Below, in pieces: positions 1 through 5,226 of a DNA stretch of 5,226 bases. The DNA is taken from the NCBI GenBank assembly GCA_019057975.1, contig JAHLWJ010000330.1, forward strand, positions 1 through 5,226, in the 5' to 3' direction. Below the pieces are notes generated by a model. The model saw only the letters and a list, made by a program, of their open reading frames with translations, ran no database searches and had not been told where the DNA came from. The stretch is from Promethearchaeota archaeon. Its GTDB lineage: Archaea > Asgardarchaeota > Lokiarchaeia > Sigynarchaeales > SOKP01. Each line of letters begins with the position of its first letter. The stretch's first letter is position 1. The position numbers and the translations under genes are program-made.

Positions 1-227
1 CTGAGGAGACTTCAATGTCAAAAATAGAAAGAGAGTTAGCTGATCTAGAAAAAACTTATGAAGGAAACATTGAGGAAGGTATAGCTTATTTAGGTCAAAG
101 TGTCGAACTCATCGACAGCGTAGAATATGTGTCTGATATAATAAAAACTATTGTAAATGATGCTGAAAAGTGTTTAACAACTGCTTTTAACAACATAAGA
201 AAAATTCCAATTGAACAAATTGCTTAA
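1..227 (+). CDS. Nitronate monooxygenase / FabK-type FMN enzyme, C-terminal end only (cut by window start)
   Basis: This is the last 75 or so codons of a gene that begins outside the window. The frame is open to base 1. The ATG at 15 is only an internal methionine codon: the residues before it (EETS) align without a gap to the EETL of the complete paralogue at 566-1600, and the match continues to the C-terminus at about 40 of 65 identical residues. Shared stretches include YEGNI, LGQS, VSDII and IVNDAEKCL. In the NMO/2-nitropropane dioxygenase family the C-terminal AGQ/LGQS segment followed by an amphipathic helix packs against the TIM barrel that binds FMN. No active-site residues are visible here. 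The protein ends IRKIPIEQIA, about ten residues beyond the end of its neighbour, because of an indel. It is probably an oxidoreductase acting on nitronates or a related substrate. That function rests entirely on the paralogue. Confidence 0.85.
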   Translation, partial: EETSMSKIERELADLEKTYEGNIEEGIAYLGQSVELIDSVEYVSDIIKTIVNDAEKCLTTAFNNIRKIPIEQIA

Positions 228-243
228 ATTAGATTCTAATTAT

Positions 244-327
244 TCAAATTTTTTTTATTACAAATAACTGTCTTTTCCCCTCTGGGATATACACAACCTG
301 AAATCCTTGAAACATAAGGTGTTCCAT
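244..327 (-). CDS. Possible 27-residue small protein or gene remnant
   Basis: An open frame runs on the minus strand from an ATG at 327 to a TGA at 244-246. It is 27 codons long and contains VVYIPEGKRQLFVI followed by KKI. The residue pattern is protein-like: two short hydrophobic strand-like runs separated by a Pro-Glu-Gly-Lys turn. It is richer in G and C than the surrounding spacer. A stop lies four codons upstream of the ATG, so it is not the visible tail of a longer intact frame. No clear ribosome binding site is seen. It lies convergent to the first NMO gene. It may be a genuine microprotein, the remnant of a larger gene, or chance. No family was recognised. Confidence 0.25.
   Translation of the reverse strand: MEHLMFQGFQVVYIPEGKRQLFVIKKI
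249..256 (+). terminator. Oligo-T tract, probable terminator of the first NMO gene
   Basis: Eight consecutive T residues begin 22 bases after the stop codon at 225-227, with no strong stem-loop before them. Archaeal RNA polymerase commonly terminates on such tracts. The same bases also read as Lys-Lys codons in the small minus-strand ORF at 244-327, so the tract could have another origin. Confidence 0.5.
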
Positions 328-470
328 TATATCAGCTCAAGATGAAAATAAAGGGGAATCAATGAAAAACTTTAGAAATTGAAAGTATATGGAGATTAAA
401 CGATCTTAAGAAATTTTTATAATATCTCAAATATTTCAATAATTGTTAAAGTGTGTTTTCATGTAAAAAC

Positions 471-478
471 TTTATAAA
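471..478 (+). promoter_or_regulatory. TATA box candidate for the second NMO gene
   Basis: TTTATAAA, a good archaeal TATA match, is preceded by an A-rich stretch (AAAAAC) where a B-recognition element would sit. Transcription would start near 500, giving a leader of about 60 bases before the ATG at 566. A weaker alternative, TTATTTAAAG, lies near 515 and would give a shorter leader. Confidence 0.45.
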
Positions 479-565
479 ATAAACTTTTGATAAAAATAAC
501 TAATCATTTGATTTTATTTAAAGTTTTAATCTATTAAATTTTCGCAATAAGAAATGTGATTGAGA

Positions 566-1600
566 ATGGTTATAGAAACGAATGTTACCAAGATGTTGGG
601 CATTAAACACCCAATTTTAAGTGCCCCAATGGGTCCATTTTATACTACTAAGTTAACAGTTGCTGTATCGGAAGCTGGTGGTTTAGGTGTTTTAAGTCAT
701 ATAAATTTAACTGGGAAAAATAGTCTGGATGAATTAAAAAAGGCTATGGAATACGTTGTTGAACACACAGAGAAAAATTTTGGTTTTAATATTAGGACTG
801 CAAGATTACAACCCGATGCAATAAAGTTATGTAGACAAATTCCAAGGTTTATCATGGAAAATCCAAAAATAAAAGAGCAATGCACGTACTTGATTACCAG
901 TGCTGGTTCTCCAAGATTGATATATAATAAACACTTTGAAAAATTAAAAGAAAGCGGTTCAAACATCAAACATTTCCATGTCGCGCCTTCATTATATCTT
1001 GCTGAAAAGTGCGTAAATATGGGGATTGATGGTTTAGTAGTTACTGGAAGTGAAGGTGGAGGGCACCAATCATATGAAAATATAAGCACATTAGTCCTAT
1101 TACAACAAATTAGAAAGAAATTACCAGATGTCCCTATAATTGCGTGTGGAGGATATGCTACTGGTGAAGGGTTAGCTTCTGCTTTATCTATGGGAGTGGG
1201 TGCTATTGCTATGGGTTCAAGATTTATTTCATCAAAAGAGTGTAAATTTCACGATAATATTAAAAATGTTATTATAAAATCAGAAGCATCTGATACTGAG
1301 TTAGTTACAGGTGTTTTTGGACCTATAAGGCTCCTAATAAATGAATATTCCCAAAAACATGGGCTTGTTTCTAATAAAGCAGAGAAATTGTCTGAAGAAA
1401 CTTTAGCTTCAGAGATAGTTGATGAAGTAAAGCACATGGAAATGTCTTACGAAGGAAACATCAAAGATGGCGCTGTTCTTTTAGGACAAAGTATTGGAAT
1501 TATAGAAAATGTAGAAGGTGTATCAGATATTATTAATTCGATAGTCAATGATGCTGAAAAATGTTTAACAGCTGCTTTTAACAACATATTGAACAAATAG
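566..1600 (+). CDS. Nitronate monooxygenase / 2-nitropropane dioxygenase family FMN enzyme
   Basis: This 344-residue protein has the length and motif order of class I nitronate monooxygenases and the related FabK enoyl-ACP reductases, which are soluble FMN TIM-barrel enzymes. Numbered from the ATG at 566, it shows SAPMG (19-23), AGGLGVLS (37-44), the flavin-side NFGFNI (71-76), GSEGGGHQS (161-169) with the His of the conserved GGGH (167), and a phosphate-binding ACGGYATGEGL...MGSRF block (193-220). The C-terminal LGQS plus helix IVNDAEKCL is typical of the family. NMOs use O2 to oxidise alkyl nitronates such as propionate 3-nitronate, but the true substrate here is unknown. An in-frame TTG lies at 560 and a stop at 557-559, so the start is one of these two codons. 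ATG is preferred, and no strong ribosome binding site decides between them. The gene is a tandem paralogue of the one ending at 227. Confidence 0.9.
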   Translation: MVIETNVTKMLGIKHPILSAPMGPFYTTKLTVAVSEAGGLGVLSHINLTGKNSLDELKKAMEYVVEHTEKNFGFNIRTARLQPDAIKLCRQIPRFIMENPKIKEQCTYLITSAGSPRLIYNKHFEKLKESGSNIKHFHVAPSLYLAEKCVNMGIDGLVVTGSEGGGHQSYENISTLVLLQQIRKKLPDVPIIACGGYATGEGLASALSMGVGAIAMGSRFISSKECKFHDNIKNVIIKSEASDTELVTGVFGPIRLLINEYSQKHGLVSNKAEKLSEETLASEIVDEVKHMEMSYEGNIKDGAVLLGQSIGIIENVEGVSDIINSIVNDAEKCLTAAFNNILNK

Positions 1601-1611
1601 TTTAATAATCA

Positions 1612-1648
1612 TTTTTATTGTATTTTTCTCTTTTCTATTAAATTTTTT
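1612..1648 (+). terminator. T-rich terminator region after the second NMO gene
   Basis: Runs of five, five, four and six T residues lie between 12 and 48 bases after the stop codon, with no stem-loop. This is the usual form of archaeal factor-independent termination signals. Confidence 0.5.
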
Positions 1649-1825
1649 ATTCAAGCAACCATCTACTTGATTTTTATAAGGTATTAATATTTAATCATTA
1701 ATTTTTAAGGTAGATCATCCCCTCAAGAAGGTTATTTTGAAGTAAATAAATTCTAGAATAAAAGTTTAAAAATCAATTGTCCCATAAGTAATGTGAAAAT
1801 CATTCAGAGTTACAGTTTTTTAACA

Positions 1826-1833
1826 TTTATAAA
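1826..1833 (+). promoter_or_regulatory. TATA box candidate for the longin-like gene
   Basis: TTTATAAA lies 55-62 bases before the ATG at 1888. A start about 25 bases downstream would give a leader of roughly 30 bases. It is identical to the element proposed upstream of the second NMO gene. An independent promoter fits the 287-base spacer and the T-tracts that close the NMO gene. Confidence 0.5.
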
Positions 1834-1887
1834 CTTAGTAAGAATATCCAAAAATTATCTAAATAACAGATTAATAACCAGGTCAAA

Positions 1888-2313
1888 ATGATCCAAGAGT
1901 TAATGATTATTAATAAGGCAGGTATAGCTTTATTTTATCATAATTTTGTAGATGTAAATAATTTCGATGATCAACAATCATTAGCAAGTTATTTTGATAT
2001 TATTTGTCGTTTTACAAAAAACAGTTTTAAAGAAAGTTTAAGGATGTTAACTTTGGATAGCGTTATCTTTTTCTTTTATACTCATAAATCTAATTATCAC
2101 TTAGTTTTAAAATGTTTGAAAAAAGAAATTAACAAAAAATTGTTAGAAGATGCTGCTGAAAGTATAATCGAAAGTTTTCTTAAAAAATATAGTGAGAAAT
2201 TAAAAGATTTCAACGGAGAAGTCTCTCATTTCAAATCATTTGCGAAAATTGTTCAGGATATTGTCTCAACAAAACTAACCGATTTTAAGGAGGCTGTTTC
2301 TGTAGAACATTGA
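1888..2313 (+). CDS. Predicted stand-alone longin-domain protein
   Basis: The protein has 141 residues and no signal peptide or membrane span. The predicted order of elements matches a longin domain: strand IQELMIIN (2-9), turn with Gly12, strand IALFYHNF (13-20), a helix (about 27-47), then three strands, SLRMLT (50-55), SVIFFFYTH (58-66) and YHLVLKCL (70-77), then a long amphipathic helix from 82 to 104 and a further helical tail (about 115-135). Asgard archaea encode many small longin and roadblock proteins, which in eukaryotes act as partners or regulators of small GTPases in membrane traffic. That role is an inference here. An AGGT at 1880-1883 is a weak, closely spaced ribosome binding site and supports this start. 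No GTPase gene lies in the window. Roadblock/LC7 is the main alternative fold. The assignment rests on pattern only, not on a conserved catalytic motif. Confidence 0.6.
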   Translation: MIQELMIINKAGIALFYHNFVDVNNFDDQQSLASYFDIICRFTKNSFKESLRMLTLDSVIFFFYTHKSNYHLVLKCLKKEINKKLLEDAAESIIESFLKKYSEKLKDFNGEVSHFKSFAKIVQDIVSTKLTDFKEAVSVEH

Positions 2314-2348
2314 GGATAATATTAAATTAAATGGATTCTAACATATTA

Positions 2349-2852: not shown

Positions 2853-3524
2853 TTAACTCGTTATGCTTTTATTTAACTTAAATTGATTAATTTCTAATGT
2901 AGAACTTGAAGAATCATCATTTATATAAAAAATTGTATTTACTAACATTTCTTCTTTATCTTCTTCAACAGGTCGAATAAAATCAAATTCTGGCTTTGAT
3001 TCTGATTCAGTTTCAGTTAATATTAACTCCTCACTTGTTCCAAATACCTCATCTATTTCTTTATTATTGTAAATCAAATCAGAAAGATCTTTTTTTAAAT
3101 ATCGATACATTTCCAGACCACTTTTAGTTAAATAAAATTTATTATCTTCCGTTTTTTTATATAGATAACCAATTGAATTAGAAATAGAAGAAATATCAAA
3201 ATCAATAGATAAATTTACAGCATGTTCAGAATCTTTTGCTTGATTATTATATAGATGTAAGATGAATTTTTCTTTGTTAGATAATCTTCTATAAATTTCT
3301 GACTTTATAATTCGCAATTTTGAACCATTTAATTCAATTTTCGGACAATATCTTTGAATTAAATTAAACATTTGTAAATATTTTTGAATTGTTATCCAAT
3401 GATTCTCTAAAGTAGTAATAAATTTTAATTCATGTATATTATAATCCTTCTCTTCTTCTAATAAATTCAAATTGTAAATTAATGAAATTGCAATAGTTAG
3501 AGGATCTTTTTTAATTTTAATCAC
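2853..3524 (-). CDS. Winged-helix DNA-binding protein with two HTH-like domains
   Basis: The 223-residue protein appears to hold two winged-helix units. The first (about 7-75) has helix DPLTIAISLIYNL, helix NIHELKFITT, and a recognition-type helix HWITIQKYLQMFNLI (42-56) leading to a wing, PKIELNGSKLRII (61-73). The second (about 81-150) starts LSNKEKFILHLY and ends with the typical wing-to-helix signature KFYLTKSGLEMYRYLKKDL (129-147). An acidic, Ser/Glu-rich linker follows (156-192), then a short polar tail. It is probably a transcriptional regulator, but no cofactor or ligand motif was seen. The start codon is GTG and lies inside GGTGATT, itself a ribosome-binding-like sequence. A leaderless or alternative start is possible, but no ATG occurs nearby in frame. 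A 16-bp palindrome lies 15 bases upstream. It forms an operon with the DUF3467-like gene. Confidence 0.7.
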   Translation of the reverse strand: MIKIKKDPLTIAISLIYNLNLLEEEKDYNIHELKFITTLENHWITIQKYLQMFNLIQRYCPKIELNGSKLRIIKSEIYRRLSNKEKFILHLYNNQAKDSEHAVNLSIDFDISSISNSIGYLYKKTEDNKFYLTKSGLEMYRYLKKDLSDLIYNNKEIDEVFGTSEELILTETESESKPEFDFIRPVEEDKEEMLVNTIFYINDDSSSSTLEINQFKLNKSITS

Positions 3525-3614: not shown

Positions 3615-4331
3615 TTAAGGTGAATTTTTTTTTATAATATCACTACAAAACCATAAATCATGTGAGATAATAAAAATATCTCCACAAAATTTGCAAGGTA
3701 TGTTATGATTTCTACTATATGCAAAATCATCTTCATTTGCCTTAATCTTTATTTCTGTTTTTTCTCCTTTTGAACAAACACAATTAATGATAAAAGTTAT
3801 AAAGAAAGTGTCCTCTTCTAAAGAATATCTAATATGAATAACATTTCCTTCTTTTTTAATAGGGTGGTTATTATCTGGGAGATTAATATCAAATTTTTCT
3901 TTTAATTCTTGTATTTTATTTTCAATAACCTTATTTGGATCTTCATCAAAAGTGAAATAATCTAAAAATTCATGAGCAAATACTTCTTTATCGATATATG
4001 TCCTACTTCTTTTTTGTTTTATTTGTTTTATTAATTTTGAAATTTCATCGCATATTCCCTTTTGACATAATTCAATAGCAATATTTTTACCTTCCCTGCT
4101 AAATTTACATGATTCTTCAGTCACTCCATGAGTAGATCTTTCTCTTGGGGGTGTAAATTCTGTGATGCCATAATCATCTAACTTTTTGCAATCTTGTTCC
4201 ACATCTATAAACGGTTCAGTTTGATATTTTGTTGGATCTATTTTGTGGCATATATAATAAATTAATTTTGGATCATCAGATACAATATCTTTTAACGTAT
4301 TTTTACAATCAAGATAAGCTAAAGAATACAT
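3615..4331 (-). CDS. Cysteine-rich, probably zinc-binding protein of unknown function
   Basis: I do not recognise this 238-residue protein. It has eleven cysteines. In the C-terminal half, a strand-rich segment (162-197) carries C184-x-C186. It is followed by a CKFCGD knuckle (C213, C216) and C229, a spacing that suggests a zinc ribbon or a treble-clef-like site. The N-terminal half has C9, C28, C48, C75, C89 and C94. Residues 75-107 (KFSREGKNIAIEL, then an amphipathic helix ending in KQIKQKRSR) resemble the wing-to-last-helix part of archaeal winged-helix proteins, so DNA or RNA binding is possible. There is no signal peptide or membrane segment. The ATG start is preceded by AAAGGGAA about 10 bases upstream and a TATA-like box. 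It lies on the same strand as the winged-helix operon, 90 bases ahead of it, and may be co-transcribed. Confidence 0.65.
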   Translation of the reverse strand: MYSLAYLDCKNTLKDIVSDDPKLIYYICHKIDPTKYQTEPFIDVEQDCKKLDDYGITEFTPPRERSTHGVTEESCKFSREGKNIAIELCQKGICDEISKLIKQIKQKRSRTYIDKEVFAHEFLDYFTFDEDPNKVIENKIQELKEKFDINLPDNNHPIKKEGNVIHIRYSLEEDTFFITFIINCVCSKGEKTEIKIKANEDDFAYSRNHNIPCKFCGDIFIISHDLWFCSDIIKKNSP

Positions 4332-4587: not shown

Positions 4588-4831
4588 TTCAAGTGGTATC
4601 AAGAATGAAACAAGTATAAATAATCTATATTAAACTAAGGGGAAAGATTACATCAAAAGTGTTAGGATTGAGAATTAATGAAGCTTATCATACGTAACCT
4701 CATGTTTTTTTAGATCTGTCATTTATTTTACTCTATTCATTCTATAATAAATTGATTATACCATGCTTAAAAAAAATGTTTTTAGTTATCATCATAATTC
4801 TATTACAGAATTAATAAAAAAATAAAAATTA

Positions 4832-4861
4832 AAGAGAAAAAGTGGTCGGCTTTTTTCTCTT
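4832..4861 (-). terminator. Hairpin plus T-rich stretch, terminator of the ubiquitin-like gene
   Basis: AAGAGAAAAA (4832-4841) pairs perfectly with TTTTTCTCTT (4852-4861) around a 10-base GC-rich loop, and one further G-C pair is possible with a bulged T. On the minus strand the hairpin starts 50 bases after the stop of the ubiquitin-like gene. It is followed by a T-rich run (TAATTTTTATTTTTTTATTA), as in an intrinsic terminator. On the plus strand no T-run follows, so the minus orientation is favoured. It is the strongest stem-loop noticed in the window. Confidence 0.6.
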
Positions 4862-4910
4862 ATAAACCCCGTGTTAACCCTATTATACTCTTATTAGATT
4901 GATGTAATGG

Positions 4911-5165
4911 TTAGGCTCCGCCTGCTTGCGTAGCCATTACAGTAATAACATCTTTCTTTGGATGAATCCCTATTTTTGTGAACTTTAATTGGTCAGGTAA
5001 AACTTTTCCTTTAAAAATAAATTGAATCGCTAAAATAGGGTTTAATTTATATTCCCTTTGGACCGTTTTTTTGATCTCTGCTATTGAATTATTAGGATCT
5101 AGCTCGATCAACTTTATAGCCTGATCCGGGGGCACTCCCGTTAGTCTAAATCTAAATTGTGTCAT
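4911..5165 (-). CDS. Ubiquitin-like modifier with C-terminal Gly-Gly-Ala
   Basis: This 84-residue protein has the length and pattern of a beta-grasp ubiquitin fold: strand QFRFRLTG (3-10), strand AIKLIELD (16-23), helix IAEIKKTVQREY (28-39), then IQFIFKGKVLPDQL (47-60), aligning with the ubiquitin segment IFAGKQLEDGRTL, then IGIHPKKDVITVMAT (65-79). It ends A-G-G-A: the di-glycine is at 82-83 with one extra Ala. In ubiquitin systems the Gly-Gly terminus is adenylated by E1 and passed to E2 and target lysines. Precursors with extra residues are trimmed, in archaea plausibly by an Rpn11/JAMM-type protease. Lysines at 18, 32, 33, 40, 52, 54, 61, 64, 70 and 71 could accept chains. The ATG at 5165 follows a TATA-like box, with no clear ribosome binding site. 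Asgard and Caldiarchaeum genomes often place E1, E2 and Rpn11 genes beside it, but none is visible here. SAMP/Urm1-like modifiers are a less likely alternative. Confidence 0.88.
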   Translation of the reverse strand: MTQFRFRLTGVPPDQAIKLIELDPNNSIAEIKKTVQREYKLNPILAIQFIFKGKVLPDQLKFTKIGIHPKKDVITVMATQAGGA

Positions 5166-5200
5166 ATTATTTCATACTTTTTTATTATTTAATTCTTTCT

Positions 5201-5213
5201 ATATATTATTAAA
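5201..5213 (-). promoter_or_regulatory. TATA box candidate for the ubiquitin-like gene
   Basis: The minus strand reads TTTAATAATATAT, ending 36 bases before the ATG at 5165. Initiation about 25 bases downstream would leave a leader of roughly 10-15 bases, in keeping with the absence of a ribosome binding site. An own promoter implies that the gene need not be read from an upstream operon. Confidence 0.4.
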
Positions 5214-5226
5214 AAGATATTGGGTA

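Follow-up and report, generated by a model that had tools for sequence, protein, structure and literature searches.

A Lokiarchaeal ubiquitin-family protein with a variable tail after Gly-Gly, and apparent mini-introns in some genes of its relatives

Does an archaeal ubiquitin-like protein that carries one residue beyond its Gly-Gly end, and whose gene stands away from any conjugation operon, act as a ubiquitin-type modifier, and with which enzymes would it do so? The question is raised by a stretch of 5,226 nucleotides, called the window here. On its minus strand, an open reading frame at 4911-5165 begins with ATG at 5163-5165 and ends with TAA at 4911-4913 (84 codons plus the stop), leaving 61 bases upstream of the ATG inside the window. 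The 84-aa product ends in VMATQAGG-A, with Gly82 and Gly83 encoded at 4917-4922 and the single tail residue, Ala84, at 4914-4916.

Homology and conservation rule out a chance reading frame. The Pfam ubiquitin profile (PF00240) matches the window protein with E=3.6e-9 and 36.7 bits against a cut-off of 25.4, no ThiS/MoaD family appears in Pfam at E<=1, and 195 proteins match at E<=1e-3. A sequence search of the PDB returned ubiquitin and ubiquitin-like (UBL) proteins, the best single-domain match being Mdy2/Get5 UBL domains (7e-5), and a search with a 50-row profile ranked poly-ubiquitin and Mdy2 first. The AlphaFold2 model (pLDDT 91.4, pTM 0.81) orders its elements as E2-8, E17-22, H28-38, E46-51 and E73-79, the strand-strand-helix-strand-strand succession of the beta-grasp fold that the original prediction had proposed. 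The FKGKxLxD segment highlighted by the same prediction is present as FKGKVLPD, and its central claim, that an archaeal ubiquitin-like protein here carries a single residue beyond Gly-Gly, is borne out by a frame that scores over the PF00240 cut-off and ends A-G-G-A. Profile, modelled fold and conserved Gly-Gly all agree with membership in the PF00240 family and, as far as sequence and model can tell, the window protein is a true ubiquitin-family member of a Lokiarchaeon. The window holds neither an Rfam family at gathering score nor a tRNA.

The family is widespread, being found in 65 of 83 genomes of the class at E<=1e-3. Matching loci of species genomes number 72, and their titles are nearly all Lokiarchaeota or Lokiarchaeia, the remainder being Helarchaeota, Sigynarchaeota or -archaeum, Prometheoarchaeum and Harpocratesius. 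An alignment of 50 sequences was built from the window protein and 49 of the 120 matches listed (of 195 in total), sequences with inserts or broken ends being left out. Invariant in all 50 are F6, R7, L8, T9, G10, P12, P13, K32, N42, I50, G53, K54, D72, T75, G82 and G83. In the alignment to PDB ubiquitin, Ile50 (codon at 5016-5018), Lys32 and Lys54 (codon at 5004-5006) correspond to I44, K27 and K48. The lysine set had been proposed to differ from that of eukaryotic ubiquitin, which holds in part, but not for these two invariant lysines. Gly-Gly is kept in 66 of 67 gene copies, the exception being a second copy in locus L043, where Gly-Cys is found; among the 120 matches listed, P0023, P0038 and P0117 lack Gly-Gly.

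The residues that follow Gly-Gly behave quite differently from the invariant glycines. In the 67 copies, drawn from 65 loci with five partial genes (L066-L069 and L072) left out, the tail is absent in 20, consists of one residue in 38 and is longer in nine (two residues in four copies, 3 to 26 residues in five). Its first residue may be I, F, Y, S, R, V, K, L, N, C, A, E or M; one example is L001, whose residues 1-83 are identical to those of the window protein and are followed by Arg. Among the 120 matches listed, the tail is missing from 27 and one residue long in 55, with 7 outside the pattern used. Since the tail varies in length and in residue, it seems free to drift, as expected of a pro-peptide that is removed. 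Comparison across copies thus indicates that the residue added after Gly-Gly is a maturation tail of an ordinary, variable kind; the one-residue extension is not notable in itself, and an Ala tail conserved as a special feature is ruled out by the same variation. Eukaryotic polyubiquitin and the NEDD8 and SUMO precursors likewise carry a short extension after Gly-Gly that needs removal, and the window protein differs from them in being archaeal and a single unit.

SUMO and NEDD8 precursors are also named in PMC5654768. The same paper, together with PMC6043591, describes the pro-ubiquitin of Candidatus Caldiarchaeum subterraneum, from which Rpn11 (CsRpn11) cuts a 9-residue tail after Gly-Gly, the uncut precursor being refractory to its E1. 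The Caldiarchaeum system resembles the present one in the ubiquitin fold, in a Gly-Gly followed by a tail, and in the E1, E2 and JAMM genes of the genome (for the window, those of its relatives). It differs in tail length, nine residues against one, and in the position of the gene, which in Caldiarchaeum is inside an E1/E2 operon with Rpn11 adjoining, whereas in the relatives mapped the operon does not include the window-type gene.

A tail-bearing family member might also be a ubiquitin-like domain protein that is never conjugated and is read through its surface only, its Gly-Gly remaining unused. The Mdy2/Get5 UBL domains, which are the best single-domain PDB matches, are not known to be conjugated, and because tails are frequent, Gly-Gly is not immediately exposed in many copies. 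This reading is nevertheless improbable: the 50 aligned sequences all keep Gly82 and Gly83 while the tail is free to vary, and the 20 tailless copies end at Gly-Gly. Similarly improbable is a role as a sulfur carrier of the ThiS/MoaD/Urm1 kind, in which a short ThiF-type enzyme would activate the Gly-Gly end to a thiocarboxylate. The C-terminal AGG does resemble ThiS and MoaD, and in 12 of 15 genomes the same strand carries, 4.5-16 kb upstream, a short ThiF-family gene (frames of 246-261 aa). However, NadA and other genes lie between, so this distance looks like general synteny, and proximity to ThiF is not accepted as proof of sulfur carriage. The Pfam result, PF00240 over its cut-off and no ThiS/MoaD family, also speaks against a sulfur carrier, as does the invariance of the equivalents of ubiquitin I44 and K48.

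The enzymes required by a modifier are encoded throughout the clade. E2 (PF00179) was found in 80 of the 83 class genomes and in none of 14 control genomes, JAMM (PF01398) in 82 of 83 and in one control genome, and ThiF/E1-family genes in all 15 class genomes tested and also in 12 of the 14 controls. E1/E2-type genes are therefore present alongside a modelled beta-grasp fold and a conserved Gly-Gly, so the contrary outcomes that the original prediction had listed (no beta-grasp, no Gly-Gly, no E1/E2 genes) did not materialize.

These genes are not beside the window-type gene. A Pfam scan of the window found no E1, E2 or Rpn11/JAMM operon gene, and in three genomes (G003, G008 and G009) an operon of modifier, E1, E2 and JAMM lies at a different place from the window-type gene. 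The proposal that the gene stands alone accordingly holds for the window and for the relatives mapped, but not for L043, where an E2 gene is close by, a partial exception to the lack of Caldiarchaeum-type membership in an E1/E2/Rpn11 operon. PMC5654768 describes Aigarchaeal and Asgard ubiquitin components as encoded in operons. The operon has its own modifier, which ends in PASTAG with a single Gly in all three genomes read (G003, G008, G009); single-Gly operon modifiers were located at L143:7288-7623, at L249:8372-8698 and in L248. In 14 of 15 related genomes the best PF00240 match is the window-type gene, so the most ubiquitin-like protein by Pfam score is the non-operon one. The best solved relative of the operon E1 is SUMO E1 subunit 2 (1.3e-38), a match little different in strength from that to UBA1 (2e-36).

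A second enzyme pair is encoded elsewhere. The genes of E1b (about 527 aa) and E2b (about 172 aa) lie near each other, and at E<=1e-45 E1b was matched in 70 of the 83 genomes (60 after ten weak or partial matches were set aside) and E2b in 63. The best solved relative of E1b is ubiquitin-activating enzyme E1 1 (2e-40), those of E2b are ubiquitin E2s, and a Helarchaeal E1b relative in L142 matches UBA1 at 4e-43 versus SUMO E1 subunit 2 at 1e-29. With the window protein as the tblastn query, no ubiquitin-like gene was found beside E1b and E2b in six Lokiarchaeal loci (L140, L141, L146, L147, L148 and L154), and by eye no JAMM or RING gene was seen among the reading frames of four of the six.

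Three further loci show related genes in closer association. L043 (genome G031) holds three genes in a row at 366-2452, on one strand and within 2.1 kb: a window-type ubiquitin gene (88% identical, 83 aa, ending at Gly-Gly); a gene whose 379-aa product contains a second ubiquitin domain, with 54% identity to the window protein; and an E2b relative (68% identical). G031 also has an ordinary E2b elsewhere. At 3359-8205 of L142 (G020, Helarchaeota), a run of genes with no ubiquitin-like gene among them encodes first a 421-aa protein, which has an E2-like domain (PF00179, 3.1e-7) and is Cys-rich at its end, then relatives of E1b and E2b (65% for the latter), and then a JAMM protein. In L151 (G023) an E2b relative adjoins JAMM. 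From these gene clusters, E1b and E2b look like a full cascade whose modifier gene stands apart. We infer that this UBA1-like E1 and ubiquitin-type E2, encoded away from the operon, are likelier partners of the window ubiquitin than the operon enzymes are.

Linkage and co-occurrence data bear on this pairing unevenly. The ubiquitin gene is linked to an E2b relative in one genome only (L043/G031). Fisher tests over the 83 MAGs, with the ten genomes of weak or partial E1b match set aside, gave a strong association of E1b with E2b (6e-5) and weak ones of the ubiquitin gene with E2b (p=0.03) and with E1b (p=0.56), too weak to be taken as proof of a link among the three. E2b occurs without a ubiquitin-gene match in 10 genomes and the ubiquitin gene without E2b in 12; G006, whose record is titled chromosome, has the ubiquitin gene and E1b and no E2b. 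The genome closest to window positions 1-2335, G003, has the ubiquitin gene and the operon, and at E<=1e-45 matches neither E1b nor E2b, which favours a different assignment, namely that the operon E1, E2 and JAMM handle the window protein as a second substrate. That assignment is unlikely, although it deserves more weight than non-conjugation or sulfur carriage: the operon comes with a modifier of its own, whose end is a different one with a single Gly, and the ubiquitin gene of L043 adjoins an E2b relative, not an operon-type E2.

Weighed against these alternatives, the window gene probably encodes a ubiquitin-type modifier, made as a one-residue-tailed precursor, matured by a JAMM protease and used by an E1 and an E2, likeliest E1b and E2b. 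A JAMM protease would remove the Ala after Gly83, an E1 would adenylate Gly83 and form a thioester with it, and an E2 would pass the ubiquitin to a lysine. E1b and E2b would be the most likely partners, with the operon E1, E2 and JAMM serving their own single-Gly modifier. Two cascades would have existed side by side before eukaryotes if E1b and E2b are indeed the enzymes that the window ubiquitin works with.

Genes of this kind are interrupted in some relatives. Outside the window, 20 Lokiarchaeal genomes gave 28 inserts of 29-39 nt in ubiquitin-like, E1b, E2b and EF1A genes (L039:10160-10330, L055:130-300, L153-L157 and L230-L246). The sample is biased, since it was drawn from matches that showed in-frame stops, added length or truncation. 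The ubiquitin gene of L039 has a 30-nt insert with an in-frame stop, and that of L055 a 30-nt insert that stays open. Their common site corresponds to 4942-4943 of the window, inside codon 75 on the minus strand, where the window gene runs uninterrupted. Among the 120 matches listed, 14 proteins have an insert of 10-12 residues at this site and P0071 stops there. The related proteins P0011 and P0014 break off after MATQ, both with similar sequence there, perhaps at a second insert site in the C-terminus. Inserts occupy several sites in the E2b genes of 10 genomes, with three in one G063 gene, and one site in the E1b genes of four genomes; inserts also occur in the EF1A genes of eight. A first survey of 257 proteins against 124 loci had found inserts with stops only in ubiquitin-like, E1b and E2b genes; the idea that they mark the ubiquitin system alone was dropped, the EFTU control having revealed stops and extra length in EF1A among the matches listed.

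Several lines of evidence suggest that the inserts are introns of the archaeal bulge-helix-bulge (BHB) type. Removing 29-33 nt (in one case 39) brings back the conserved peptide pattern for all 28 inserts, a result that the insert search itself required. The BHB test asked for two 3-nt bulges, with the cut after the second base of each, on either side of a 4-bp central helix in which G-U pairs were allowed. In one or more registers that restore the protein, 24 of the 28 inserts have all four central pairs, three have three of four and one has one of four; E2b_G063_b does not fit the motif, and for EF1A of G055 and G057, where many registers fit, the count was limited to the 31-nt and 32-nt ones. 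Swapping 5' and 3' sites between genes gave a mean of 1.8 fits in 28 and a maximum of 7 in 2000 trials, and a sliding null gave a mean of 1.9 in 28 and a maximum of 8, again in 2000 trials. The inner helix of the inserts has 5.9 of 7 pairs on average, a figure without a null of its own. The genomes also encode the expected enzymes: the splicing endonuclease (PF01974) is present in all 20 insert-bearing genomes and RtcB ligase in 19 (partial in G071, none in G039). Motif, excision that restores the protein, endonuclease and RtcB, which together characterize archaeal BHB introns, are thus found with the inserts.

Other origins of the inserts fare less well. Pseudogenes or assembly errors are unlikely because the sites recur in different MAGs and excision restores the conserved protein. 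Ribosomal bypassing is a possible alternative, though one that does not predict BHB pairing. On genomic evidence the ubiquitin gene and its likely partner genes look, in some relatives, as if split by tiny RNA introns, an unexpected finding. A wider reading has close to an even chance of being right: two separate cascades, one of the operon with its single-Gly modifier and the other combining the Gly-Gly ubiquitin, a UBA1-like E1 and an E2 of ubiquitin type; and, in many sister species, intact protein from the genes of the second cascade and from EF1A only once BHB introns of about 30 nt have been spliced from their mRNAs, by the tRNA-splicing route and not a spliceosome. Some stops were noted apart from these inserts: a second TAA without an insert in EF1A of G052 (L232), and a stop at about normal length in EF2 of G073 (G073:C89) and of G023 (G023:C23) and in JAMM of G070 (G070:C37).

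A precedent is provided by the cbf5 gene of Crenarchaeota, for which PMC2738675 describes pre-mRNA introns of 33, 36 and 39 bp with a bulge-helix-bulge for EndA. The Lokiarchaeal inserts are alike in being short and having the bulge-helix-bulge motif. They differ from that account in their genes (ubiquitin-type, E1, E2 and EF1A), in measuring mostly 29-33 nt with up to three per gene, and in that their splicing is predicted. No report of such introns in Asgard protein genes was recognised in searches of open-licence full text; a wetland Asgard study reports tRNA introns (PMC11291895), and the word intron is absent from the main text of the MK-D1 and Lokiarchaeum papers. If the mini-introns are real, annotation has overlooked or misread some of the ubiquitin, E1, E2 and EF1A genes of Lokiarchaea, and mRNA splicing can be tested directly in the archaea that stand nearest to eukaryotes. 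Asgard archaea would then already splice the pre-mRNAs of core eukaryote-like genes.

The start of the ubiquitin gene is itself variable. In 65 loci the codon aligned to Met1 is ATG in 38, ATT in 15, ACG in three, TTG in three and others in six, some of which have an ATG just upstream. Loci with a non-ATG start (ATT in 15, ACG in three) are L004, L007, L010-L013, L016, L019, L024, L032 and L036-L040, and also L020, L026 and L027. In the 15 ATT loci no in-frame ATG, GTG or TTG precedes the next upstream stop, and in many of them a GGTGTGAT-like stretch lies a few bases upstream of the start. Initiation of the ubiquitin gene at AUU (or ACG) is possible on these alignments.

The surroundings of the gene recur in part. 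A divergently transcribed protein is encoded upstream of the ubiquitin gene in 42 of 72 loci, with weak winged-helix matches below the Pfam cut-offs and, by eye, a zinc-ribbon-like CxxC pair at its end. In 20 of 72 loci (e.g., L016:9594-9809), a coiled-coil, proline-rich frame of 62-71 aa immediately precedes the ubiquitin gene on its strand, and 19 of these 20 frames carry PFRF at or close to the end.

The two ends of the window have different nearest relatives. Positions 1-2335 are 97% identical to L003, and the ubiquitin end (4820-5222) is 91% identical to L001 and 83% to L003, so that statements about the L003 genome need not hold for the organism of the window. Between the ubiquitin gene and a conserved gene at 1888-2313, three minus-strand frames (2457-2846, 2853-3524 and 3615-4331) have no confident Pfam or PADLOC match and no tblastn match at 1e-4 in the 72 loci. 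Either an exchange of the ubiquitin end or a joining of two genomes in the contig may explain why the ends differ. At the other end, positions 15-227 hold the 3' end of a second nitronate-monooxygenase-like copy, ahead of the full gene at 560-1600, and L003 has two such copies in the same order.
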